From NCBI GenBank assembly GCA_903813345.2, contig CAIIXF020000011.1, positions 16,103,754-16,167,753 of the forward strand: a stretch of DNA of 64,000 nt, in the 5' to 3' direction. The position numbers and the translations under genes were made by a program. The stretch comes from Owenia fusiformis (Eukaryota; Annelida; Polychaeta; Sabellida; Oweniidae). The notes beneath the pieces are model-generated. The model saw nothing but the letters and a program-made list of their open reading frames with translations, searched no databases and was not told the DNA's origin. Positions 2,616-53,500 of the stretch are shown piece by piece; positions within the stretch are counted from its first letter, which is position 1; each line of letters opens with the position of its first letter.

Positions 2616-5600
2616 GCGAGTTATATTTTTAATTTTAATTTTCCATCCTCGAATAGTGTAATGATGTTTTGTACTTGTAAGTTAGGTTAGCATTGTTGCC
2701 TTCCAAGCAATAGATCCGGGTTCGATTCCCGGCTGACGCATCGTTTTTTCTGTTTTAATTTATGTTATGAGGTATTGCTGATATTACAAGTAAAACATTT
2801 TATTATTTTTTTTTTTATATTTATTCTTTATGAATTATAATCAAATAAAGTTCTGTTAAGAGCGTCAGTGGTGAAAACCCTAGCATTGTTGCCTTCCAAG
2901 CAATAAAAGCGGCTTCACGTCTTTTATTCGAAACAAATAACCCTTAGGTTAAAACGATTATCCATTGTGAACTATATCGCGTGTCCCAAAAAATGAGCCA
3001 TGTTTTGACAAGTATTATCTCAGCAACCGATCAACCAAATTCACTGAAAATTATAATGTAGCCCAAGTAGCCTAAAGAGTATCCTTAGAAGATTCAAAAA
3101 TACACTGATTCAGAATCCGGCAAGCATTTTCCCTTATTCCTCTACGTTAAGAAGTTTTGTAAGGTGGTGGGTCCCTTTAAGAGCGTCAGTGATGAAAACC
3201 CTAGCATTGTTGCCTTCCAAGCAGTAGACCCGGGTTCCATTCCCGGCTGACACAGCCTAATGTAAGATCTTTAAATTTACCCGGGATGATATCAATATCA
3301 TCCCTCTAATACCGAATCATCCCTGAAATCGCCCCTGTCCCGAATATGTGATTTATCACTTGCTATTATATACCTGATTGTTCTGACCATTGAATGAATA
3401 CACATACTTGTATATCCCTTACGATAAACCCTGTATTCAAAACCTCCCAGTACATAACCCTTATATACTTTATAACAGTGAATAAGATATAGTATAATAA
3501 TACTTGACAACTTAAGCGGCTTCACCTCTTTTATTCCAAACAAATAACGCGTTGGTTAAAACGATTATCCATTGTGAACTATATCGGGTGTCCCAAAAAA
3601 TGAGCCACGTTTTGACAAGTATTATCTCAGCAACCGATCAACCAAATTCACTGAAAATTATAATGTAGCCCAAGAGTATCCTTAGAAGATACAAAAATAT
3701 ATAAAAAATCAAGTAAATGTGGGGACTACGAAATCCGAGATAGTATGCCATAATATCCCATACCGAAGCAACACAATGAGGTAGCGTTTGTACCAAAAAT
3801 GAGAAGCAATTTGACAAGTAATTTCTCCGCAATGGATGAGCCAGATTCTTTGAAAACTTTACATGAGGCACGCTTGGGTATCTCCTGCTAGTGCCATGAA
3901 TATGTAAGGGATTGGTTGTATATTATGTATGTATTTAAGAATTAAAGACAGTATGTCGAAATAAGTAATACCAATGTAAAAGTCACTTATTAATCCATTT
4001 CTAAGCAAGAATACTTTTCCGTATTTATCCTCACAATATCACCTCCAATGAATTTTTAGAATGAATGGATTTTTGATATTTGTGAAGAATGAAACAAATT
4101 AATTAGACATTACACACAGATAAGCTATTTTGATATGGTACAAACACTATGGAGGCCTTATCGCAAAGCTATGGTACAGGATATTTTGACATGCTATTTT
4201 GAATTTCTTAGTACTAACTGAATATTTATTTGATATTTTTTAATATTTTCAACTTGCTAATAATACTCTAAGGCTACTTTGTAGAAATTTTCAGTAAAGG
4301 AGTGGTATCGATATGGAGAACTGAATTCAACAATGTTTTCTCCTAAAACAATCATTGAAAAAATTCTGTAAAAAACACGGTATTTCATGTAATGTTGACT
4401 GATTGACAACAATTTAATGCGAAAATTATTTAGAAATATTTTATATAACTGTTTTTGTTAACATTATTTGTTATTTAGTGCAATTGTTTTTGCTCCTTTC
4501 TACCAATTCTTGAGAATGAAAGTCTTTCATTTCATTCTTGTTGGAACAAAATACTAGCATATACAACATGTTTTTAGACCTATCAATATTACAGTAATAC
4601 AAAGGAACAGTAACCCTATATTCGGTCGGATTGGGACCACACAGTCTACCACTTGCTGGGGCTGTATTTCCCAGAAGCTCAAGAGGGACTAGATCCGGCA
4701 GACAATAGTTCATATTTCGGTAGGATTAGAAAATTAATGCTTTCATGCTGGTATCACAAATAAAACTTGAAAAGTAGGAGGGAAATTAGCGCAACAGATT
4801 TCGGACAGTCATATGTTGGATTTTGGCTATTTTCTGAGGATTTAAACAGGTGCATATGTTAGGCCAATGCATAACTTCCAGGAAAAGCACCTCTAAAGAT
4901 GATAAAATAATTTCGACTTTGAGACAGGGTAGATGCAAACAACCCACCCAGATGTTTTTTCTGAAATGTTTTCCTGATTTTCAACCCCTTCCACTCCGGT
5001 TTTTGTATTTTTCTTGCATAAATATATTGCGTTTTGACACACAGTTAACCCCTTTAAAGGAATACGTGATTCCTTTTAGATAAAGTGGTAAACAATATAT
5101 ATCCCATGTTATTTTCCCATAATTTTGGTCACCCATAATGGATATCTTTAAAACCCCTGTAGGAATTACTTATTCCTTAAAAGTGGTTAACTGTGTGTCA
5201 AAACACAACATGTTGATGCGATAAAAATTTAAAAAGCAGCAGGGGTGGAAGGGGTTGAAAGCATACGACCACGAGTGGGAAATAACCTCACAAAATAAGT
5301 ATAATTCATTATATTTAGTATATTAACAGCACAAAAATCATGTTAATGATCACTGTTTCACATCAAATCAATGTAGGATGTAAGGTTTGAAATGTTCTTG
5401 TTATTTGATACTTTCTTTAGCATACATGTAGCTTTTAAAGAAATCAGGCTTTAAGCGCGGACTTTGACTTGGCAAAAAATATGAAAAGAAAGAAAGCGGC
5501 GACTTGTTAGAAACAATGAAATGACATTGTAAATTGAAACATTGGGGTTTTATATTTTGAGAGTTCATCATTATACACTTCAGTGTATTTATGTTAACAG

Positions 5601-18041: not shown

Positions 18042-20741
18042 ACAATTGAATTTGAATTTTATTTAACAAAAAATGATGACTTTATTTACGTTGAGGCTGA
18101 AAGTCTGAAAGTAATAGACTTTATCAAGAAACCGGAACACTGTGAATCAGTTTCAATTGAGATTATTAATTCAAACACAAAGAACATAATTGTTACTACT
18201 TTATATAAGCCTCCAAATGTCAATATAGGAGAGTTTAATGACCACCTGAATTTATTTATGACCAAAGTTTCTTCTGAAAATAAGCACTCAGTTGTGACAG
18301 GAGATTTCAATATTGACTTATTTAAATGTGATTCCCATCAAAACACTGGAGAATTTCTTAATATTATGCAGTCATTTAATCATCAACCATTAATTTATAG
18401 GCCCACTAGAGTCACAGCACATTCAGCCACTTTAATTGACAACATTTTCTCAAATTTAAATAATGTCATCCACAGTGATGTTATCCTGACAGACATTTCT
18501 GATCATTTTCCTGTTTTTCTCCTAACACGTACATATATAAATAAAAATACTCAAAAAGAGATTTCATATAGAATTTATAATAATATTAATAATGAGAAAT
18601 TCAAGCAAAAATTGCATAACCATGATTGGTCAAAACTTTATGCTTCCACGGATGTAAATTCAGCATATTCTATATTTTATGATGACATTTATAATGCATA
18701 CAATGAATCATTCCCTATTGTTAAGAAAAAAGTAAAATATTTTAATGATAATAGTCGACCATGGTTAACATTAGGTATAATAACATCTGCCAAGACAAAA
18801 AATAAATTGTATTACAAATATCTTAAATCACCTACTCTTTTAAACTTGAAAAAATACAAGGACTTTAAAGCTAAATTAAGATCAATATTGAGAACATCGG
18901 AGGGGTCATTTTATAGGGAAATACTCCAAGCTACTAATGGTAATATCAAAAATACTTGGAATGTTATCAATGAAATACTGAAAAAGAATGGAACAAACAC
19001 CAAGCCCCAATTAGATTTTGACCTAGATGGACAAATTATCCATGATCCAAAGGAGGTTGCTAATATGTTTAATGGTTTCTTTTCAAATGTAGGGAGGAAA
19101 CTTAATGATGAAATTTTACCAAGTAAGAAATTTTGGTCTGAATATATGAATCAACAACTTAGAAATAACAACAATTTTACCTTTTCAAACATTAATCAAG
19201 ATGAACTTCTTCAAGAGATGTCAAATTTAAAAGATTCCTCGGCCTCAATTGATGAGATAAAACCTATTGTAATCAAGAGAAGTAAAGATGAAAATATTAA
19301 TCCATTATTATTTATTTACAACAAATCTTTAACTGATGGCTGTTTTCCTGACCTGATTTCCTTTCTTAAGCTTGCAAAAGTTATACCTTTATTTAAGAAG
19401 GGAAATAGAAATGTCTTTACGAATTATAGACCTGTATCTATTTTGTCAGTTTTTTCTAAACTTCTTGAAAAACTAGTTCATAAACGTCTTTATCAATTTA
19501 TCGAAAATAATCAAATCCTTTACTTACAACAATTTGGATTTAGAAAAGACTTCTCTACATATATGGCAATCTTAACTTTTGTTGAAAATATAAGAACAGC
19601 CTTAGAAAATGACGAGTATTCAATTGGACTTTTTCTTGATCTTTCAAAAGCGTTTGACACGTTAAATCATGAAGTATTGCTTAAAAAATTAGAATTTTAT
19701 GGGATACGAGATAAGTCCTTCAATTTTTTCAAATCATATTTAGCCAATCGTAAACAAGTAGTCTTTTATAATGGAACTTCATCTGAAGTTAAATCAATAT
19801 CTCATGGAATACCCCAAGGATCGGTTCTAGGGCCGCTCTTATTCATCTTATATATAAATGATATGTATTTGGCATCTCCCACTTTGAAATCAGTTTTATT
19901 TGCTGATGACACCAACATTCTTGCACATAACTCTAATATAGACCTACTTGTTAATAACCTTAATCGAGAACTTTTATCCCTGGATGATTGGTTTAGATCA
20001 AATAAACTATCACTCAACTATGATAAAACCAAATACATAATTTTCACAAAGAAGAAAAAGCAAATTAATAAAAATGTGAATACAAAAATTAATAATATCA
20101 ATATTGAAAGGGTAAAATCAATTAACTTTCTTGGTGTTCAAATTGATGAATATCTTGACTGGAAACAACATATCAAGAATCTTGAAACAAAATTATCTTG
20201 TACAATTGGAATTCTATACAAATGCAGATATCTATTAAATGTACCAAGTATGTTGGCAATCTACAACTCATTGATATACTCTTATCTCAACTATTGTGTT
20301 ATAATATGGGGCAGCAATTATAAAACTGCACTAGATAAGATTTTCAAAATTCAAAAAAGCTTTTTGAGATTGCTTGCTTTCAAAGATAGAAGAGCCCATA
20401 CAGCTCCACTTTTTAAACAATTTAAAGTTTTGGATATTTACAATATCCACCTTCTTAACGTCGCCCAATTTGTATACAAATGGTACAACCGATTAACAGT
20501 GTTCCCACAACTTTTTGGTGATTTTTTCCAAATAAATGTTAACATTCACAATTATCATACCCGCCATTGTCAGGATCTACATGCTTTTGGATATTACACC
20601 AAAGTAGGATTTTTTTCCATTAAGATTCAAGGTCAATGGATATGGAACAGTATTGAAAGGCCAATAAGAGAAAGTTCTTCTTTGAATATTTTTAAGATAA
20701 GATACAAAAAGTATTTGATAGATAAAATTTCTTTAGATTAG
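18042..20741 (+). CDS. LINE endonuclease (partial) and reverse transcriptase
   Basis: The first ATG is at 18258 (827 codons), but endonuclease homology extends upstream in frame (NIIVTTLYKPP), so the natural start has been lost. From that ATG, the APE-type endonuclease remnant spans residues 1-90, with GDFNID near 15 and SDHFPVF near 82. The RT domain spans about 370-620: NYRPVSIL near 388, FGFRKDFST near 425, LDLSKAFDTLNHE near 460, HGIPQGSVLGPLLF near 516 and the catalytic LFADDTN near 548. A C-terminal region follows (IYNSLIYSYLNYC and beyond) that is usual for Jockey/CR1/L2-type LINEs. There is no stop or frameshift within it. Without the full endonuclease it is unlikely to be autonomous. 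Confidence 0.92.
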   Translation, partial: TIEFEFYLTKNDDFIYVEAESLKVIDFIKKPEHCESVSIEIINSNTKNIIVTTLYKPPNVNIGEFNDHLNLFMTKVSSENKHSVVTGDFNIDLFKCDSHQNTGEFLNIMQSFNHQPLIYRPTRVTAHSATLIDNIFSNLNNVIHSDVILTDISDHFPVFLLTRTYINKNTQKEISYRIYNNINNEKFKQKLHNHDWSKLYASTDVNSAYSIFYDDIYNAYNESFPIVKKKVKYFNDNSRPWLTLGIITSAKTKNKLYYKYLKSPTLLNLKKYKDFKAKLRSILRTSEGSFYREILQATNGNIKNTWNVINEILKKNGTNTKPQLDFDLDGQIIHDPKEVANMFNGFFSNVGRKLNDEILPSKKFWSEYMNQQLRNNNNFTFSNINQDELLQEMSNLKDSSASIDEIKPIVIKRSKDENINPLLFIYNKSLTDGCFPDLISFLKLAKVIPLFKKGNRNVFTNYRPVSILSVFSKLLEKLVHKRLYQFIENNQILYLQQFGFRKDFSTYMAILTFVENIRTALENDEYSIGLFLDLSKAFDTLNHEVLLKKLEFYGIRDKSFNFFKSYLANRKQVVFYNGTSSEVKSISHGIPQGSVLGPLLFILYINDMYLASPTLKSVLFADDTNILAHNSNIDLLVNNLNRELLSLDDWFRSNKLSLNYDKTKYIIFTKKKKQINKNVNTKINNINIERVKSINFLGVQIDEYLDWKQHIKNLETKLSCTIGILYKCRYLLNVPSMLAIYNSLIYSYLNYCVIIWGSNYKTALDKIFKIQKSFLRLLAFKDRRAHTAPLFKQFKVLDIYNIHLLNVAQFVYKWYNRLTVFPQLFGDFFQINVNIHNYHTRHCQDLHAFGYYTKVGFFSIKIQGQWIWNSIERPIRESSSLNIFKIRYKKYLIDKISLD

Positions 20742-23711: not shown

Positions 23712-26700
23712 GTAACCAAATTATTAATTCAATGAAAATTTCAATCACTTAGTATCATATATCTTACATTTTAAAGCTGATAAGTCTAGAATAAGGTTGT
23801 TAATGAAATGTGTGCGTTTTTGTGATTTTTGTGACAATGATTCCTAAAAAGATGACAAGGGGTAGTGTTAGACGGTGTTTACTCATACGTTAACCCTAAT
23901 GTGAACAACGTATTTCTCATAACACTAATGGACGGAGGGGGTCAGATGACCCCCATGGCATTTCAAAAGTTGAAGAGGTATCGTCAATAGTAAGGTACCA
24001 TCATATTGTAGGTCATTCAAAACTTTCGAGGTATTATTTCTTGTATTAAATCTCAAAAAGTATCTTGAAGCCAGTTTTAAAAAATAAACGGTGCGTTTTT
24101 AATAAACAGATATACAATGCATAATCTCTTCTGAATTGATGAATGTAACCCAATTCATCGATATTCATGCTAATAATGCATTTTACATGCATAATTTTGG
24201 CATAAAATGACTTCTTGCAAAAAATCTTAAGTATATTTTGTTGTTTCCAAAGCTAGCTTTCAAATTGGTTTCATAAAAGCCAGTTTCTTGGTGACTACAG
24301 AAGCCGGCTTCTGTAGTACGTCAAAAGCCGGCTTTTAAAATTGCCTTCTTGGTGACTGCAGAAGCCGGCTTTTTAAAAGACGGCTTCTTGGTGACTGTAG
24401 AAGCCGGCTTCTGTAGTACGTAAGAAGCCGGCTTTTTAAAAGTCGGCTTCTTGGTGACTGTAGAAGCCGGCTTCTGTAGTACGTGAGAAGCCGACTTTTT
24501 AAAAGACGGCTTCTTGGTGACTGTAGAAGCCGGCTTCTGATGTACTATAGAAGCCGGCTTTTTATATTTGCCATCGACCCTTTCTCCATATTTCCGGTGA
24601 CATTCAAGTCAGAGCTGTTTCCAGGAAACTGAAATAAACTATATATTTGGCTAAACACTAAGTTTTTAAATGCCTGTAACTTTTTACCATTTGTATGTTA
24701 AACCATGATACTTTGCGAATCAATGTTACTTTGGATGAGCTTTAAAATGATATATGACACATACTATGGAGACATTGGTATACGTCTGCCAAGGGGGGGG
24801 GGCATACTTTCGGGACACCCTGTATATACCATGACTTCAAAAGCTTTTTTAATATTTTCTTAATATTATTTCCATTTTGGTCTTTTTCCAGCTTCATGTG
24901 TTAGATGCAGGATGTGGCACTGGGAACTACAGTCTTGCCCTGTTGAAGGAAGGACTGGGGCATGTAACACTCTTGGACGCATCTGAGGGAATGCTGCATG
25001 TTGCAAAAAAGAAACTTAAAACGTTCATTGAAGGTAAAGGTATATATTTGGAGCTCAGAGTTCTAAGGCCTTAAGGCCCCTAAAATTGGGCCTTTTTGGT
25101 CATTACTGGGGCTTTGAAGGCCTTATTTTTTAATTTCAGGCCAAATGTTGAAGCCCATTTTCTTCAAAATTTGGCCTGAAATGGTGTTTTGGGGTTTTAC
25201 GGACCAACGTTTTTTCTCTGAAATTTACCCCCCCCCCCTGTTGCTTCCCAGATCCGCCCTGATCGATGTCTATGAGTGTAAACTTCCCTCAACTAAGTTT
25301 AACATAACAAGTGAGTTTTGCTCTTCAATTCAAGAATTTTGTATAACGAATATTTTCTTTTTTAAAACCCTTCAGTTCAAGCTTTATTCTTTCAGTCTAT
25401 TTTCAGTAACGTAGCTTCAAACTCCTTGCCCCAGAATTGGGCCAAAAGGTCCCCAATCACCAGACTCCAGACTTCAGACAACTTCTCTTTTATAATTCTT
25501 ATGCTGGGCTACATATAGCCCCAGCATTAAGTTTAACCAATAGAAGTATCAGGGTCTGAAGACAAGTTAAAGATGCAGACTTACATCAAAGTTACATATA
25601 AGATTATACAGCATACTACACAAAATCATGCAATAATATACACGTATCATAATCCAGTACCCTTAAATGATAACGCAGTTTATACACATGAGGGGTAAAC
25701 GTATTTATATTTATGATTATCGACTGGTATACTTCCCGCTTGTATGGACTATTGCAAAAATGCCTGCCATAAGAGGGAATCCCTTGAGATGACGGGCATA
25801 TTTCGACCAGTATAATAATTTAGAGATGGCATTTCATTGGCTTTCAGAATGTCTCAAGGACCTTCTTACTGATTACGAAAGTTAAATTACTCAGATGCGA
25901 GTAGGTAGTTACCAGTTTCACCACCAGGTGGCTGATTCGGGGGAATTAACATGGCAGGGTATTACAAGATTCCCTTAAACTTGAATATGCATCAGTTTTA
26001 ATGGTTCACTTTTCATATTACCTTCATGTATCTAATAGTTATACAAATTAAAATATGTCCAGTAAAAGAAAATATTATCTGCCCAACACAAGAAAAGATA
26101 TTTCACTTTTTGTGGTTTTACAACATGGGGTCTATGGGGAATCTCCCCGACCTAGAAGTCACATTTTCAAAGAAAATTAAATTTTTTTTAAAGTTGATAA
26201 ACTCTTTTCAAAACCACATTTCTAAATGTAACTTTACATGTAGATTCCAAATATGACATCAGTTTGACTGAATTGTGAATTTTTAATGACAAAGCATTTT
26301 AGAGTTCATTAAAAGACCACGTGCAGTATGGCAAGTGATTTTAGACAGTCATATCTTTCACCATGAGTACTTTCTGGCCATAAATACAGTGGCTTTTATT
26401 AAAACAATATATTTTCTTTCAAGTGAAGTCCCCATGATAGTAAAATATCAATCCAACTCTCTGAAAAATTATGGATTAGGGCCCCACCTTGGCACTTTTT
26501 GAAAAATGTTAGGGCTATTTTCTAAAAAGAGGATCTTGTTTTTCTCAATTTAAACATATCGAACGTCTCCTCTACACTTTATTAACAATTTCTGAAAAGG
26601 GGATGGGTATTGAAATGAGTTAAAGTTAAAAAACACATATCCCATGTTATTTTCCCATAGGGAAAACTCGTGCTATCCATTGTTTTCAGCATTATTTTGG

Positions 26701-29700: not shown

Positions 29701-32700
29701 ATTATGTAAAGTTAACGGAATAATTCTCAAGATAAGGTAAAAGTTTACACGCTCAGTTGATAAAGTTGGCAACACAAATGTTAATTGATATTTTTTTTGA
29801 ATTTGTTATACGTTCACTTGCAGTCTACAATCGTTGAATAGAGCCACTACAATTAGTTTCGTTTAGTGCGAACGGTGCAATATTCAACTTTGACCTACCC
29901 GAACCTCCTAATGTAAAACTAGGAAATAGCAAATGCACGGAGTAACCAATTCAACCGCAGTGGAGTGGCAAATCCCCGAGCAAATCCAACCGAACAAAAC
30001 ATATTTTGATGTGATGCGATCCCGGATGCGATGCAATTAGTAAATACTTTCTTGAGCAGAGGTCCCATGACGATAAATCATTACCACATAAGATTTGCAC
30101 CAAATCCTGTAACTCCAACAATGGAATCCATTTTTAAAATATGATTATGATATTTGATATCAACTAGCAAAGATGGTAATGGTGGATGAATGCATATAAA
30201 TAAACTATGAACATTTAGCATGAATACTTTTTGAACATTTATTCCAATATATGAATTATTTACGAAAAATGATACGTTTTCCATGTATCATAGATGCACC
30301 CGGAGATGCACATTAAGTACAGTTGGGGACAAAAATAAATGACAGGTCGATTTTCGATTACCATTTCCTAATTATGGTCGTCTGAAAGCCCATAATTTCC
30401 AATATTGTCTAGATACATATCCCTTAAAATTTGTATGTTTCACATTTTGTATAATCTCATCCACTGATGTATGGCCTCTTGAAAATTCTCTTATTTTTAA
30501 CATGGGAAATTCTCACTTCAGCAAATCCACCTGTCCTTTATTTATGTCCCGAACTGTAGTTTGACGCAGTATAATAACCATCCATAGATAGGCTACGTCA
30601 CTGAATGAAACTACATGTAGTTAAAATATAACCTTACCAGTCGGAATCTTGCCTAGATGCGAGAAAGGGGACATGCTGTCTTTCCCATCTGCCAATTTTT
30701 GTTACCGTAAAATTTGGCAAATCGCCTCGCCGTGACCGTCATGGTAAACAGCGTGATTATTTGATTGAACATATAATGAAACGAAAATCGTCTCTTAACA
30801 ACTGCGTCGGTGGTGTAAAGGTTAGCATTGTTGCCTTCCAAGCAATAGATCCGGGTTCGATTCCCGGCCGACGCATCGTTTTTAATGTTTTAATTTATGT
30901 TACGAGGAATTGATGATATTTCAAGTAAAACATTTGATATTTCAAGTAAAACATTTTATTATTTGAAATGAAGAATTATAATCAAATAAAGTTCCTAGCA
31001 TTGTTGCCTTCCAAGCAATAAAAGTACCCTTTGCATTCGTTTGACTTCACTTCTTAAAAGAGAGATTCGTCTTCTGTGTAGTTTAACTAGACTCTGCAAG
31101 CAGGGTACAATAAAAGCGGCTTCACGTCTTTTATTCGAAACAAATAACCCTTAGGTTGAAACGATTATTTATTGTGAACTATATCGCGTGTCCCAAAAAT
31201 GAAAAAATGAGCCACGTTTTGACAAGTATTATCTCAGCAACCGATCAACCAAATTCACTGGAAAGGAGAACCCCCGAGCGATAAGGAGAGCTTTTTAGGA
31301 GGACAATTGCTTTTTTATTCTGAATGAGATCAACATGGAAGTTTAACACTACATCAGAGATGATCTTAGATATTAGGTGATTTTAGATATTCCCAAAAAC
31401 AACTTGTGTGATGTAAAACTTGAATTGCTTTTTTAAGAACATTTTTTGCAAGGCAATGAACTCGTTTTTTTAAGGTTAGACTCTTTATTTGTGGTTAAAA
31501 TCCGTGTATGGCCTGATGGGATAGGAACAAAGTGTCACAGTTAGTGGGGGGAATTTAGTGGAAAATATTTCAAATGGTGATACAAGCAAATTTATTGGCT
31601 TAATCTGTTATTTAAACTATTTGGAAAAATTCTGTCCCTGTGATCGATCAAACGAAACACTATTTCAGGAAAAAATTCAAGATGGCTGCCGTATATGTGT
31701 AATTCGATACAAATGACACTTTAGATTCATATATAGAGATATATATGGTTTAAAATTATATTGATTCAGTAGTAAAGCATGTACATTATATCTAGAAATA
31801 CAGTTACATTCATTAATGAGCTGAATTTGGGCAAAATGACTTTATATAGGGATTCTACAAGGTTCTATTTTGAGAGCACTCTTATTTTGCAACAACTTTA
31901 GTCATTAAACTTGTGTTCTTGAATAATGTTGACATTTCACACATTATTCAATCTAATATTTCAAGTTTACATGAAAACACTGTCTTACAAGTACCAAGGA
32001 GACTTTGAAGGAGTCCCGCAAGGTTCTACTACACTCCATTATTATCACAATCTCTTGGAATTCGGTGGAAAATATTCAAAATTGCGATATGATGCAAATT
32101 TATGGGCTGTCAGTTATTTATGCAAATAAGAAAAATTCCATCCCTCAAATCAGCCAAACCTAATGCTATTTCAGTAAAAAATTTAAGGTTGTCGAAATAT
32201 GTACATAATTCAGTAGAAATGACACCTTAGATTCATACATAGAGATAATATGGTTAAAAAATAGGTTCACTCAGTACTAAGACATGCAAATATATTTAGA
32301 AATGCTATGATCTTCTTTGATTTGAATTTTGGCAAAAAGAGTTTTATAGGAGTTCTTCAAGGTTCTATTTTGGCCCTCTCTGTTAGAACTTGAATTACTT
32401 TATAACATTCTCTAATACATTTAATATCTAAGACATAATTCAAGAATATATTTCAAGTTTGAATGAGAATATTGTCAACCAAGTATCAATGCAAACATTG
32501 AAGTAGTCTTCCAAGGTTCTACCTTAGTCCATTATTATCACAATCTCTTAATAGTATGATGAAATAAGGGCAGGTAGACAAGACAATTACACAGAATTAC
32601 ATGTGGAATTGCACAATACTGTACATTTAAGTACAGATTTTTTACAAAAGCAAACTAAACATGTCTAGAGACTTGCTGGGTTTAGAGCCCCATGTCGAGT

Positions 32701-35700: not shown

Positions 35701-38700
35701 CAAAACGACATAAACACAACATGTTTAGGTCTCTCAACATCGTAGTACAAAGGAAATTTTGGTTGATTTTAAAAAAGTATCTTGTTAATGAAATAAAAGG
35801 TTAATTTTGATTTTTATTTATTCTGGGGGATTTTGTTTTAATTTTTTGAATACTTTTTTAAAATCAACCAAAAATTTCTTTGTATAACTATAATATTGAG
35901 AGGTCTAAAAACATGTTGCTTATGCTATTTTGTTCCAACAAGATCGGAAAGACATTTTATTTCATTCTCAAGAATTGGTAGAAAGGACCAAAAACAAGTG
36001 CACTAAGAAAAACAAAAAACGTTAACAAAAAACAGTTATATAAAATATTTCTAAATAATTTTCGCATTAAATTGTTGTCAATCAGTCAACATTACATAAA
36101 ATACCGTGTTTTTTACAAAATGTTTTCAATGATTGGTTTAAGAGAAAAACTTTGTTGAATTCAGTTCTCCATATCGATACCAATCCTTTCATGATGATCA
36201 CTTCCAGAATAAAATAGTTGTGTCCTTCTGAAAAGCTCTCTTTATCGGGGGTTCTCCTTTGTATAAAGTAGCCCAAGAGTATCCTTAACAAGATACAAAA
36301 ATATGAAAAAATCAAGCAAATGTTATGTGGGGACTAAGAAATCCGAGATAGTATGTCATAATATCCCATACCGAAGCAACGCAATGAGAACTTTGTAGCG
36401 TTTGTACCAAAAATGAGAGGCAATTTGACAAGCACTTTCTCCGCAATAGACAAGCCAGATTCTTTGAGATTTAAGAATTAAAGACAGTATGTCGAAATAA
36501 GTAATACCAATGTAAAAGTCACTTATTAATCCATTTCTAAGCAAAAATACGTTTCTGTATTTATCCTAACAATATCACCTCCAATGAATTTTTAGAATGA
36601 ATGGATTTTTGATATTTGTGAATAATGAAACACATTAATCAGACATTACACACAGATAAGCTATTTTGACTGATCGACAGACGCTATCACCTGATAGCTG
36701 GTACAAACACTATGGAGGCCCTATCGCAAAGCTATGGTACGGGATCTTTTGACATGCTATTTTGAATTGTTTAGTACTAACAGAATATTTATTTGATCTT
36801 TTTAATATTTATTCAAGTTGCTAATAATACTCTAAGGCTACTTTGTAGGAATTTTCAGTAAATTTGATGCATCAGTTCCCGAGATAATACGTGTCAAAAA
36901 GTGGCTTATTTTTTGGGACACCCGATATACTCTGGGGATAAAGTGTAGGACATCAACAGTTTAAGTCCAGTACCAATAGCCCTAGAGATAATGGTCCGGG
37001 AACAGTAACCCTATGTTCGGTCCGACTGGGACCACAAAGTCTACCACTCGCTGGGGCTGTATTTCCCAGAAGCTCAAGAGGTACTAGGTCCGGCAGACAA
37101 TATTTCATATTTCGGTAGGATTAGAAATGCTTTCATGCTGGTATCATAAATAAAACTTGAAAATTTGGTATCAAACACAGACCATTTGGTATATTATATA
37201 GGAACTGTATCTTTTGTCGTACCCACTGAATTAAGATGTGGCCCGTTTTCGTATTTTGCTGATTTCATTTATGTAACTTGTAAGGAAGTGAGGAAGTATA
37301 TTGATGATTTTGAAGTCTTACGAAGTGATTCGTTCGCAAAAGCTTACATTTTCTGAAGCATTAGACCATGAGTTACGTTTGTGCCAAAAGGTAGTTATGA
37401 TTTTGCCTATATCTCACAGAATCATGGAAAAACAAATGTTATCGAATAACGGTTGCGCCATTTTGTTACGAAACCGGATTCGTTTTCGAAACTCGCTTCA
37501 TGAGTTCCTCCACAGTGAATCGGTGATTTTGTATGAAAAGGTATGCATGTATGACTTGATGTTGCTCCATGTAATTCCAGTCCATGATGTTGCCTAACAA
37601 CCACAGAAGTAGATAGAAAACTGAGGGCATCAGGCCGCCACGGGCCGCCACGGGCCCGGGGCTTTCAAAATCTCTGAAGATGAGCAGGAGATATTGATGA
37701 GCAGGAGATAAATTAATTGAATGGGGATTAGGAGATAAATTAATTGGATGGGGCTTTCATCTTAAATGGGTGAGAGATAAGATGCGCATGACATCATTGT
37801 TATCTTAAATGGGTGAGAGATAAGATGCGCATGACATCATTGTTATCTTAAAAATCAAACATGAATTACTACATCAAATAACTGAGAAAAAATTAATGTA
37901 CAATATTGTTTAATTTATTTGCATTTATTTTACAAACAAAAGTACCACATAATCTAATTAATCCTTATTATCACTAACAGAATCATTGGTTTCATCAGAT
38001 TCATTATCACTAGATTCACTAGCTTCGTCATTGTCACTAGAGTCAGTATACGATTCATCTGAAACATTTGCATCATCATAAAGTCCTACATTAATAATGT
38101 CTTCTGTCATATAGTTGTGGTGTAACATGGTCTTCTTAAAAGCATCTTCAAACGGTATGCCTGTACTCATTAATTGTTGGATGTGTACCATGATTTCTTT
38201 ATGTGTTGGACTACATTGTAAATCTAGTAAATCTTCAACTAAATATTTGTAGTATGTCTTAAACGTTTCTCTTATTTTGGGTAGGAATTTTTGATTCGCC
38301 ATATATCTTCTATCATACTCAGAATTCCCCTTCTGTTTGTCTATATATTTTGCCTCTTGTTCTTCAATTTGATCTTTAAATTTATTAATAGCTTTATCCT
38401 TTAGCCGTATATACACAGGGTTTTCCTGAAACCCTTCAGTGCATACCTTCTTCATTGGAGGGTCGTCTATATCCTCATTCAATGGACAGTTTTGGATATG
38501 ATTCTGTAGATCCATTCTTGATATTAACATGACGCCACAATAGTCACAATGACATATTTCTTTCATGTTGTAATTTTTGTTGTCAGAATGCATAACGTTG
38601 CTGGGGATAGTATCTTTTATACTCGCAGTGAACTGATATGGAGGTTTCATTATTGAAGTATCATACTGTGACATCTCTTTAAATGGGTTTTCAATAGAAT

Positions 38701-41700
38701 TCAAATCATATGGTAGTGCTATGTCATTGGATTGTACTGTCTTAGTAAATGGTTCTCCCTTTAGATGACTACTATCATGCTCATTCATTGTTTGATGAGT
38801 CTTATCATAACACAGTCTTAAATGCTCTGGGGTTTCTTGCTTTAGATCAATCAGTAAATGCCCATATGGTTTTAGAGTAGCTGCATTATAAGCATCTAAG
38901 AGTTTGTGACTGTTCCCAGGATACATCTGCTGAGAAAGTACTCTTACTTGGTTTTGATCTCTTGGATTCTTGTACAGTACAATGTAATGTGTATTCAAGC
39001 TGATGGTTCGATTCTCCCTTCCATGATGGAAGATATTCTGCAGTAAACAGATTACACTCAGGTTTCTGTGATGACTCCCTTTAGTAAACAAATCAGAGAT
39101 CTTCCTGTCTTTGGTAGCATCTGACATCAAGTCATCAACAATCATTAAATTACGAACTCTGGGATTTAAGAAATCTGGACTGTTTAAATCATCTGGAATT
39201 CCCATCATGAATTCTATTCCAGGATGTGTGTTCTTAATCTCTATGTAAAGTGGTTGCCATTGTCCAAAACACCAGATAATACGCTGTGGAGGGGGTTGGA
39301 TGCGTTGCTCTACATTTTCCAGAAGTTGCTTGACAAAGGTAGTTTTCCCACAGCCTGTGGGGCCAGTGACCAACATGGTAAAGGGGTGATGCAACACTTT
39401 GTCCATACCTACATGTATGTCTTCTTTACCTAGTGCAGAGTGCATGCCTTTGTGTCTCGCTAAACTTGAAGCATGTCTAAATTCTTTACCACAATGACAG
39501 TAATACATGTTACTGCCTCAAAGACTGATAACAAAATGGATGCAATTCATAATTTCATTCTGTTATGTATATGTGTTCAAAGGCATGTTCAATAATGCTA
39601 ATTTAAATGTATGCTAATAGATGCTAATGGTAATGCTAACAGATGCTAATGGTGATGCTAAGTAATGCTAACAGATGCTAATGCTAATGCTAACAGATAC
39701 TAATGCTAATGCTAACACGTGCTAACAGGTGCTAATGCTAATAGATGCTAATGGTAATGCTAACAGATGCTAATGCTAATGCTAACAGATACTAATGCTA
39801 ACAGATGCTAATGCTAATAGATGCTAATGGTAATGCTAAGTAATGCTAACAGATACTAACATATGCTAATGATGATGCTAACAGATGCTAATGGTAATGC
39901 TAACAGATGCTAATGCTAATGCTAACAGATGCTAACATATGCTAATGATGATGCTAACAGATGCTAATGGCAATGCTAACAGATGCTAATGCTAATGCTA
40001 ACAGATGCTAACATATGCTAATGATGATGCTAACAGATGCTAATGCTAACAGATACTAATGCTAATGCTAACAGATGCTAACATATGCTAATGATGATGC
40101 TAACAGATGCTAATGGTAATGCTAACAGATGCTAATGATAATGCTAACATATGCTAATGATAATGCTAACAGATGCTAATGAGGTAATGCTAACTAATGT
40201 TCATACATATTCAAACCATTTGTAAATGACTGTAAATAGCAAACAACATTTGAAACTTTAGTTATTTATTTTTATTCATATCGTTCAGTATTATATACAA
40301 ATAACTTTAATCGTCCATCCTTGCTGGGATACCAGGTGGTTTGTATAAGAATGTCCGTTTCTTTCTTGTATTCGAAGTGTTTTGTTTTTTCTGTTTAAAT
40401 GGTTTCTTCTTTATATTTACAGAGTTTTGTTGTTTCTCTTTAGATGGTCTATACTCTTCATATTTCATATCTTCATGTTGACGTTTCAATTGTGCCTTTG
40501 CTCTGTCAACAACTGCAGTCATGGGTGAAATGATTTGTACCGGTTTAGTATCTTCTTTAATGTCATCTATGCCTATCCACCCTCTTCCTGTTTGAGATAC
40601 TTTCAATCTATTCTGTCTCCCAGCTCGAATAAGTTTCAACCAATGTTCTGGGTTGTCTACATATGGTACTAGTTTCATGGTTTTTAGTTGATGTGTATAT
40701 ATCAAGTATGAGGATTGAAATGATAAAGATTTGAATATTTCACTCAATATATATTGTCAACTGGCATCAATATCAACTTCTTATCAACATCTGATGTCGT
40801 GATATTCTTAGAAACTGATGTCGTGAATTAATGTAGTTCTTGTTGTTATTGACCATTCCAGATTAGAAAGTTGAAAGATTATTTATATTCTTAAGATACA
40901 TTAAATAGATTTTTCTGTCAAACTTCTGGAACCTTCCAGAATAATGACTCATCGCTATAATCTGTTTTTTGAAAAAGGGGATTAACACTGTAAATAAAAG
41001 ATGTTCTAGAATATGAAGGATTAACATTGTGATGACACAATTAAATGTCAACATTCAATTATTACATTAAAAGACCATTATTGTTGAAATCAAGTATAGT
41101 AAGATCAAATGGTCAATTCAATATAGGACTTAAATAAATAAACCTTTTCAACGGTCAATTCAATATATGATTTAAATAAATAAACCTTTTCATCTGTACA
41201 CATATTTAATCCAAAATCCAGTTCTCTTTCCTTTTATGCGAACAGTATTTGTTTGACCAGCTCAATAGGATTATTGATTCTTTTCAATGTTGGGTTAATA
41301 TTGAAAGTAGAATTGTAAACACTGTTTATGGATTATACCAAATTTAAAATAATATTAAAGGGATTTATTTTGTACTTTACTATTCAGTCCAAGAAATACA
41401 TTTCTCACCCATTTAAGATAACAATGATGTCATGCGCATCTTATCTCTCACCCATTTAAGATAACAATGATGTCATGCGCATCTTATCTCTCACCCATTT
41501 AAGATGAAAGCCCCATCCAATTAATTTATCTCCTAATCCCCATTCAATTAATTTATCTCCTGCTCATCAATATCTCCTGCTCATCTTCAGAGATTTTGAA
41601 AGCCCCGGGCCCGTGGCGGCCCGTGGCGGCCTGATGCCCTCAGTTTTCTATCTACTCACAGACATTGAAATAGTGAAATTGAAAAGATAGGGGTAGAGGA

Positions 41701-50393: not shown

Positions 50394-50513
50394 ATGAGTA
50401 TATATGAAGACTATGAGAAGAGGGCAGCTGTCTATGATAAACACAGGGTTGCTGCAGGGGTAGACACACTCATTGGAATCTTTCTCGGACAGACTAGGAA
50501 ACCATTGTCACAG
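50394..50513 (+). CDS. Methyltransferase copy C, exon 1a (with start codon)
   Basis: This is the only exon 1 copy in gene C that retains ATG and MSIYED. It ends TCACAG before GTATAT, phase 0. The ATG context TTGCTGAGAGATGAG matches copy B. Confidence 0.88.
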
Positions 50514-53500
50514 GTATATATAATTCACAAAAGTATACATAGCTTATGTTTATGAGAAGAGGGCAGATGTGTATGATAAACACAGGGTTGCTGCAGGGGT
50601 AGAAACTCTCATTGGAATCTTACTCGGACAGACGAGGAAACCACTGTCACATGTATATATAATTCACAAAGTATACATAGCTTATGTTTATGAGAAGAGG
50701 GCAACTGTGTATGATAAACACAGGGTTACTGCAGGGGTAGAAACTCTCATTGGAATCTTACTCGGACAGACGAGGAAACCACTGTCACATGTATATATAA
50801 TTCACAAAGTATAAATAGCAGGCCTGTCAACTTGGGAACACCTAACATGAGTGACTTGGAAATGTTGAACACCTCCCCTCAAAATGTGGACACCTTGGTC
50901 GAAATCTGGACACCTTGATCCAAATTTTTAACACATTGGTTTAAATTTTATTACATCTTGCCAAATTTTGAACACCTCAAATTTTTCGCGCTCGCTACGC
51001 TCACGTTTCAGACATCTGTCAACGGGGGGGGGGGGGGAGTAGGTACGAACATTTTCGAACGGAATGCGTGACATATACGTAATTCGCGTGAAAAGTCCGA
51101 ACGAAATGCGTACATTTTTTTGCTTGACAATTACCAGGTAAAATGCGTATTTGCGTGACATTTTCTGTCACGCAAAAATAACTGGCGTGACTTCAAATTC
51201 TTCAGCAAATGCGTGACAAATACGCAAATTGCGGGACAGTTGACATGCCTGACATAGCTTATGTTTATGAGAAGAGGGCAGCTGTGTATGATAAACACAG
51301 GGTTGCTGCAGGGGTAGATACACTCATTGGAATCTTACTCGGACAGACGAGGAAACCATTGTCACAGGTAAGCAAAGGACTTAAATAATAATACATAGCT
51401 TATGTTTACGAGAAGAGGGCAGCTGTGTATGATAAACACAGGGTTGCTGCAGGGGTACGTTACACTCATTGGAATCTTACTCGGACAGACTAGGAAACCA
51501 TTGTCACATGTATATATAATTCACAAAGTATACATAGCTTATGTTTATCAGAAGAGAGCAGCTGTCTATGATAAACACAGGGTTGCTGCAGGGGTAGAAA
51601 CTCTCATTGGAATTTTACTCGGACAGAGTAGGAAACCATTGTTACAGGAATTTATAATCACAAAGTTAGTATAATATAATACATTAGTTTATATATCGGC
51701 ATTGAAGTGGCATTTTTGTAAGACAACGAATCAAAATATCACCATTGTGAAAATAATAATGTAAATAAAAAATGCACCTTACTTGCGTGATTCTCAGAAA
51801 TAAACTACAGAGTGGCCCAAAAAAACAATACTCCAAGAGATGAATGATTCATATGATGTACATGTATGTTAAACCATGCCATGTGTTATATATAATATAA
51901 AGATAAATCATTTTCTAACAAAATGACACCATCCAAATAAAAAATCGTTTTTTTCATGGAGTTAGAGACTGGAATTGACACCAGTTAGTGACCAAAAATA
52001 AAAAACATCAAATTTTTGGTCGCTCATGACACCCTGGCGTCAATTTTAGCCTCTAACTCCACAAGAAAACAACGGTTATTCAATCAGTTAGTGTCATATT
52101 GTTAGGAAATGATTTATCTTTAAATCGATTTACAATAAGTGGCATGGTTTAATGTAATATCATACGATATTCATCTTTAAACTTGGGTATTGTTTTTTGG
52201 CCCACCCTGTAGTACTCACATGGGATCATAAAAAAGGTGATAAAAACGATGATCTATCAATAAACTGGTTAAATAATGCAGGATGTGGAACTGGGAACTA
52301 CAGTCTTGTCCTGTTGAAGCAAGGACTAGGGCATGTAATACTCTTGGACGCATCTGAGGGAATGCTGTATGTTGCCAAAAAGAAACTTCAAACTTTCATA
52401 AGATGTATAAAATAAACTAAATTTATTTATATACTTACTTCATATTTACCTAATTTCCAGCTCCATGTGTTAGATGCAGGTTGTGGCACTGGGAACTACA
52501 GTCTTGCCCTGTTGAAGGAAGGACTGGGGCATGTAACACTCTTGGACGCATCTGAGGGAATGCTGCATGTTGCCAAAAAGAAACTTCAAACGTTCATAAA
52601 AGGTACAAAAAACAATTTTCAACAGGCAGAAATATTCAAAAATGTTTAAGATTACTTTAGTGAGGCACCTCTAACACCTCAAAAAAGAAAATAAAGTGTG
52701 TTAAAAACCGTCGATCCAATTTGGGTCAATAGTAACAACCAAATTAAATTTCATGAACAAAATGGGGAGTTTAGAGGAGCGGTGTTTAATCATAACTTCC
52801 ATCATTAACCGCAAATCCTGGAGAGCATACCCAATATCCGATATATATTAAATTAGATTAAGCATGTCAATATTTGACATAAGAGTAGATTAAGAATTGA
52901 AAAAGCTTTATTAACGTACAAATTATGTGTAATCTTATTCATTCTACTTTTTTAGATGACAAGGCAGTGGTCACCCATGGTATCATGCCAGATCTAGACT
53001 TCCCCGATGATACATTTGATGCTGTAATGTTTAACCTTACACTTCATCATGTAGAGAACTCACCAAACCCCGAGGGAGAATATCCAAAGATTTATAAAAC
53101 TTTACAGGTGAATAATCAATATAACTAGGTCAACCTATAAAAGTTTATCAAAATAGGCTAAAACACTAATTTTTAAATTTTTTGATTTTTTACTATCATG
53201 GGGACTTCACTTGAAAGAAAACATATTGTTTTAATATAAACACTGTATTCATGGCCAGAAGGTACTCATGGTGAAAGATATGACTGTCTAAAATCACTTG
53301 CCATTCTGCACATGGACCTTTAAAGGGTGACGCATATCGTTTAGCAAATCGAACGCTCGTTTCTGGTGTTGCTCACCGTTTAGTATAAAAGGCCCGATCC
53401 CGGAATAATACTCAAGGGTTCACAGGTTCGAGTTCGTTGTGTCAACACCTCCAACTGTTATATAGCATAAGTATATTATAGATCGTCACACATTTATAAA

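Follow-up and report, generated by a model that had tools for sequence, protein, structure and literature searches.

Two-gene elements in the genome of Owenia fusiformis as probable helper-dependent satellites of Polintons

A stretch of 64,000 nucleotides from the annelid Owenia fusiformis (assembly GCA_903813345.2, contig CAIIXF020000011.1, positions 16,103,754 to 16,167,753 of the forward strand; the whole stretch is hereafter called the window) contains an element of 4,049 bp at positions 37608 to 41656, which is bounded by AGT ends and perfect terminal inverted repeats (TIRs) of 245 bp. With a probability of roughly 0.6, this element is one copy of a family of Polinton satellites which keep a packaging motor together with a virion-linked protein and which, as we infer, use a helper and are packaged. 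Its parts, with positions in the window, are the following:

37602–37607, left target-site duplication CACAGA, 6 bp
37608–37852, plus strand, left TIR of 245 bp, beginning AGTAGATAG
37958–39508, minus strand, gene of a packaging-type ATPase, 516 aa
39611–40199, intergenic minisatellite of about 22-bp units, ATGCTAACAGATGCTAATG-like, with matching repeats in other copies
40307–40678, minus strand, gene of a small basic protein, 123 aa, pI 10.2
40319–40348, minus strand, motif LYKPPGIPAR, C-terminal in the small protein
41412–41656, minus strand, right TIR of 245 bp, identical to the reverse complement of the left TIR
41657–41662, right target-site duplication CACAGA, 6 bp

The first-pass annotation of the window had described TIRs of 245 bp, AG/CT ends, the CACAGA duplication and two open genes on the minus strand within 4,049 bp, all of which were confirmed. 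In addition, the left TIR includes two 43-bp tandem units (37759–37844). Queries which detect integrase, protease and predicted capsid genes in two Polintons of the same genome (loci L023 and L032) gave no match to any of these genes in the window element, and a scan for frames of at least 130 aa, read from stop to stop, revealed none in it besides the two genes and none of polymerase size.

The ATPase, which exhibits an N-terminal C2H2-like finger, the Walker A motif GPTGCGKT, the motif LMIVDD, a C-terminal helical region and an acidic tail, was assigned to the A32/FtsK-HerA packaging type. By VIA-align its model is closest to the genome-packaging motors of capsids; the order given by Foldseek differs. 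The small protein is a homologue of the Polinton gene product encoded just before the predicted major capsid gene in L023 and L032. A model of it, poor in quality (mean pLDDT 59.9), shows two helices and a disordered tail. A protein search with the small protein matched solely the Owenia fusiformis protein P0122, and no Owenia-labelled protein was present among the ATPase matches listed (best 120 of 344 and best 120 of 187, most of them without a name). Scans of IMG/VR with the ATPase, the ATPase alignment, the TIR pattern, the small protein and the small-protein alignment yielded no confirmed relative, and a DNA search of phage records yielded no match. A chance open frame was considered and rejected. 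Related long C2H2 ATPases occur in three clusters of near-identical members (P0003, P0008 and P0013 with 99, 113 and 77 members, respectively), which could be further high-copy satellites.

A search of the assembly (498,259,871 bases, 525 contigs) with the small protein gave 113 matches, of which 23 showed 98–100% identity, namely nine single matches, the window copy counted, and seven inverted pairs. The 15 corresponding loci besides the window, which were picked by the small gene and not by the ATPase, comprise eight further window-type copies and seven palindromes. The nine window-type elements (3,933–4,473 bp) lie at nine places on eight contigs, with identical gene order and strand, and their ATPase frame has 516 aa in every copy without any insertion or deletion. 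The frame of the small gene is intact in all 23 copies, these loci having been selected by the small gene itself. Apart from the two genes, none of the eight further window-type copies contains a frame of at least 100 aa, nor was any match to the rve integrase found in them with queries that do detect it in L023 and L032. All 16 related elements have AGTAG ends and exact 6-bp duplications, each of them different, and such new duplications at repeated insertions indicate that the element is mobile. The palindromic elements (4,648–5,914 bp) carry the small gene alone, in two copies and without an ATPase gene; each arm consists of the TIR and the small gene, and the arms flank a second minisatellite and a spacer of about 100 bp. 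Among the six palindromes whose spacers were compared (L016, L017 and L019–L022, with L018 outside the comparison), the central spacer is inverted in L021, as expected from recombination between palindrome arms.

These copies bear on several possibilities raised in the first-pass annotation. That the element might exist only once did not hold, as there are nine two-gene elements, each with its own 6-bp duplication, and the search for other copies of about 4 kb with different duplications returned eight more of 3.9–4.5 kb. Random internal deletion of one full Polinton did not hold either, since the nine share a single layout and the full-Polinton versions in L023 and L032 are diverged, and an assembly artefact as the source of the TIRs is unlikely because the copies differ in their flanks and target sites. 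A lone decayed Polinton was likewise rejected in view of nine like copies. Of the description of the element as having only a packaging ATPase and one small gene, the presence of both genes stood, but the second gene proved to be a regular Polinton gene and the sole gene of the seven palindromes. What recurs in several families is a module of two genes, of which the small one is the most constant. In its main part the first-pass interpretation of the element as a satellite form was supported, with a borrowing of replication, integration and capsids and a role in packaging or interference as its conjectural side.

Both genes show signs of purifying selection. Among the nine window-type ATPases 49 of 1,548 sites are variable (18, 8 and 23 at the three codon positions), with a mean nonsynonymous divergence (dN) of 0.0071 and a mean synonymous divergence (dS) of 0.0192; the resulting ratio of 0.37, which the first-pass annotation had proposed to determine, is modest when taken alone. 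Within the window family the mean divergence is 5.3% in the 600 bases of noncoding DNA that lie upstream of the small gene versus 0.93% in the ATPase gene, the noncoding values ranging from 0.5 to 20% with a possible contribution of poorly aligned copies. For the small gene, whose 22 fetched copies represent 14 distinct sequences (the window copy being excluded for a 3-base deletion), dN was 0.0065, dS 0.048 and their ratio 0.135. Three further loci with the same gene pair, L024, L035 and L036, are far more distant from one another: their ATPases exhibit dN of 0.145–0.152 and dS of 0.52–0.60 (dN/dS 0.24–0.29), their small genes dN of 0.12–0.19 and dS of 0.47–1.28, so that both genes together show dN/dS of about 0.14–0.33 over dS of about 0.5–1.3. 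On these alignments the simplest reading would be that the two-gene state is ancestral to L024, L035 and L036 and that both genes were kept in it over that span. The earlier suggestion that the ATPase is retained by selection is thereby borne out to the extent that the gene looks selectively kept, with nine of nine frames intact, more diverged noncoding DNA and the low ratios among the three distant lineages.

Ten further loci with an ATPase and the small gene were found in total (L024, L025, L028–L031 and L035–L038). All 19 gene-pair loci match the ATPase and the small gene only, whereas both full-Polinton loci match integrase, protease and predicted capsids with the same queries. Element ends outside the window family are shown for L024 and L038. 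In L024 and L025 the ATPase gene (561–562 aa) and the small gene are convergent; L024 is an element of 7,551 bp with AGTAGTATAG ends, flanked by the duplication GTTTAC, and for L025 the left end and the 6-bp duplication were not found. Of the six L024-family loci read, three have an ATPase of full length (L024, L025 and L031), one has a shorter version of 518 aa (L030) and two have a broken one (L028 and L029). A frame of 113–115 codons lies antisense over the small gene in L024 (4181–4528) and L025 (4145–4492, plus strand), and also in L028–L031 and L036.

The small protein ends in LY(K/R)PPGIPAR in the window family and the L024 family, with the variant LYTPPGIPAR in L014. This PPGIPA tail is absent from the small proteins of L023 and L032 and marks most satellite copies read. 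None of the 50 small-gene matches that reach residue 118 or beyond has a listed integrase within 6 kb, versus 35 of the 63 that end earlier; as the cut-off at residue 118 was set after the list had been inspected and the integrase list is incomplete, this pattern serves as a lead only. The remaining 28 of the 113 matches stop short of the C-terminus and are not near any listed integrase. Outside the window family 27 matches reach the C-terminus, of which ten were fetched. Four of these loci (L035–L038) were fetched by match reach alone as a test of the prediction, and all four turned out to hold an ATPase and the small gene; the 9 kb read gave no match for integrase, protease, predicted capsids or polymerase. 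L035 (tail LYKPPGIPAY) and L036 (QYRPPGIPAR) have a convergent gene pair. L037 and L038 represent a distant family, with an ATPase of 437 aa, the small gene before the ATPase gene on the same strand, the tail LYRPYNIP and the Walker motif APTQSGKT, in which the usual first glycine is replaced. L038 measures 5,026 bp and has AGTAGTAGG ends; the duplication TCACTG borders its inverted repeat, though the end scan also gave two inner pairs.

The ATPase tree places the L024 family together with the full Polinton L023 (support 91/88); the window family stands outside this group, beside a clade that includes P0001 from another source (91/80). Judged from this grouping, window-type and L024-type satellites may have separate origins, but their shared small-protein tail speaks for a partly common history.

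Polinton-type integrases are frequent in the same genome. An integrase query gave at least 139 match rows at no fewer than 113 places, 120 of the 139 being free of stops, and these counts are lower bounds, as 113 of 615 candidates were scored. The integrase-bearing loci are possible helpers. For comparison, the average number of Mavericks per vertebrate genome is 22 and the median eight in the excerpt of PMC8097293. At least 35 of the 113 small-gene matches lie no more than 6 kb from a listed integrase. The Polinton piece L023 contains, in this order, an ATPase gene (535 aa), integrase, a 138-aa protein, the small gene (121 aa), a 448-aa protein and protease. Its 138-aa and 448-aa proteins are presumably the minor and the major capsid protein, labels that we assign from position and similarity to L002. 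Pfam backs the ATPase, integrase and protease (Peptidase_C5) of L023 and gave no match for the two predicted capsid proteins, and a sequence search of solved structures gave none for the predicted major one. In L032 the order is predicted minor capsid, small gene, predicted major capsid, protease, integrase and a short ATPase of 220 aa. The position of the small gene in both loci corresponds to that of the PW gene, which the excerpt of PMC8097293 lists between the minor and major capsid genes of vertebrate Mavericks. In global alignments of the window element with L023 the ATPases are 44% and the small proteins 56% identical, and the nearest integrase-adjacent small genes reach 64% identity to the window small protein over residues 1–114. 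Gene order as a proof of rearrangement was dropped, because the orders in L023 and L032 differ and Polinton order thus varies within the Owenia genome. Three other Polinton contigs (L001, L002 and L003) lie inside bacterial metagenome-assembled genomes, two of them titled as endosymbiont of Escarpia laminata, and are probably host contamination.

If the window element is a helper-dependent satellite, autonomous Polintons of the same genome would supply polymerase, integrase and capsid, and copying by the helper polymerase would be protein-primed from the AGT ends. The satellite ATPase and the small basic protein with its satellite-type tail would then fill helper shells with the DNA of the satellite, which would compete there with that of the helper. 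The two genes would be selectable only if their products favour the encoding copy, which would suggest a particle-borne stage with few genomes per cell. As the palindromes carry the small gene only, the small protein seems to be the more basic need, with the ATPase suppliable by another element.

Several observations weigh against this interpretation. Within the window family the ATPase signal by itself is modest: the codon-position chi-square gives p = 0.028, the synonymous excess over random mutation p = 0.035, and the absence of stops, with 1.7 expected, has a probability of 0.18. The ATPase is shortened or broken in half of the six L024-family loci. The L002 polymerase query matched nothing in the gene-pair loci and nothing in the full-Polinton pieces either, so that this result lacks a positive control. 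The seven palindromic relatives have no ATPase gene and have nevertheless moved; the ATPase is therefore not needed for every step, and its being essential for movement as a general rule was rejected. Finally, intact vertebrate Mavericks measure 16,862 ± 1,678 bp in the excerpt of PMC8097293, for which reason a genome of 4 kb would fit badly into the capsid of a helper if that capsid is unaltered. The shell may be smaller or may contain several genomes, or the cycle may do without packaging.

Ordinary non-autonomous transposons, i.e., internally deleted Polintons mobilised in trans, in which the genes are passengers that are intact because the copies are young, would account for part of these data. 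The identical TIRs of the window copy point to a recent insertion, the ATPase differs by only about 1% between copies, and both the spread of palindromes without it and the damaged L024-family genes would be expected of a passenger. What makes this explanation unlikely is that at least three distinct layouts or lineages have retained the same two Polinton genes, that both genes show low dN/dS among L024, L035 and L036, over synonymous divergences of about 0.5–1.3, and that window-family coding DNA is far less diverged than the adjacent noncoding DNA. It is equally improbable that the elements act by interference, with a spare ATPase and small protein that jam or dilute helper packaging to the benefit of the worm or of an element attacked by the helper. 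A similar benefit has been proposed for endogenous virophages, there are many possible helpers in the genome, and the small protein, whose tail differs from that in L023 and L032, is the constant part. However, all nine window-family ATPases and the four other satellite ATPases that were aligned preserve the Walker lysine and the DD motif, so the ATPase is not a simple dead motor, and the new 6-bp duplications show mobility.

Quite improbable, in our view, is a particle-free cycle in which the small protein acts in cis in replication or integration, for example by binding DNA ends, and the ATPase serves that step as a DNA pump or helicase. The basic character of the small protein, its two helices and disordered tail (in a poor model) and its role as the sole gene of the palindromes are compatible with such a cycle; its gene lies, however, directly before the predicted major capsid gene in both full Polintons, and the ATPase model is nearest to capsid packaging motors (VIA-align).

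A broader form of the satellite interpretation, which we put forward tentatively and would not yet favour, is that several satellite lineages within one worm keep the same packaging module, consisting of the motor and a tail-modified virion protein, to steal Polinton particles, and that they represent a previously undescribed class of animal virus satellites. Retention of packaging-related genes with loss of the rest is the expected look of a particle-borne parasite. If true, this would lend indirect support to the idea that in animals Polintons spread in the form of particles, since the genes would be kept only if a copy profits from its own products. The two satellite genes offer a small, testable system.

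Other features of the window are an open frame of 899 codons with an RVT_1 domain (18042–20738, plus strand), apparently an intact non-LTR retrotransposon frame, and two arrays of a 138–139-bp tandem unit, partly readable as a repeated peptide (50412–50819 and 51252–51666). A further tandem array (24325–24564) consists of 39- and 63-bp units from AAGCCGGCTT motifs. Three tRNA-family matches above the gathering score lie on the plus strand (30804–30875, 3183–3254 and 2671–2740), of which the last, near the threshold, may be a tRNA-derived repeat.

With Polintons, or Mavericks, the satellites have in common the AGT-type ends, long TIRs and 6-bp duplications, as far as excerpts of PMC8097293 and PMC4028283 describe them. 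They also share an A32-type ATPase for packaging and the small gene that precedes the predicted capsid gene in L023 and L032. They differ by their size of 4–7.5 kb versus about 17 kb in the excerpted source, by the lack of matches to Polinton integrase, protease and predicted capsids, and by the lack of a polymerase-length frame. According to the excerpt of PMC4028283, nine Polintons without a capsid gene had also lost ATPase and protease, a joint loss of virion genes; in the satellites, unlike in these capsid-less Polintons, the ATPase stays as the only one of the four. The same excerpt mentions, and argues against, an earlier proposal by which Tlr elements would be non-autonomous derivatives of Polintons. 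A literature search returned no paper title naming a gene-bearing non-autonomous Polinton, Repbase reports lying outside its scope. Non-autonomous DNA transposons, including miniature inverted-repeat transposable elements (MITEs), resemble the satellites in TIRs, target duplications, several copies and the lack of a transposase, but MITEs are without coding capacity, whereas the satellites carry two intact, apparently selected genes. Virophages of the Mavirus type are small Polinton relatives that may parasitise another virus, and they have their own capsid genes; no virophage-type double jelly-roll capsid gene was found in the satellites with the L023 versions, whose capsid labels are predicted, as queries. 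Phage-inducible chromosomal islands, which are satellites of bacterial phages, are small, depend on a larger virus and have a packaging-specificity gene of their own. They are named in an excerpt of PMC6431247. Their likeness to the Owenia elements would lie in the way of working only, with an animal host and a presumed helper dependence here, and to our knowledge the two share no genes. If the satellite interpretation is true, the Owenia elements, made up of Polinton genes, would be for eukaryotes what phage satellites are for bacteria.

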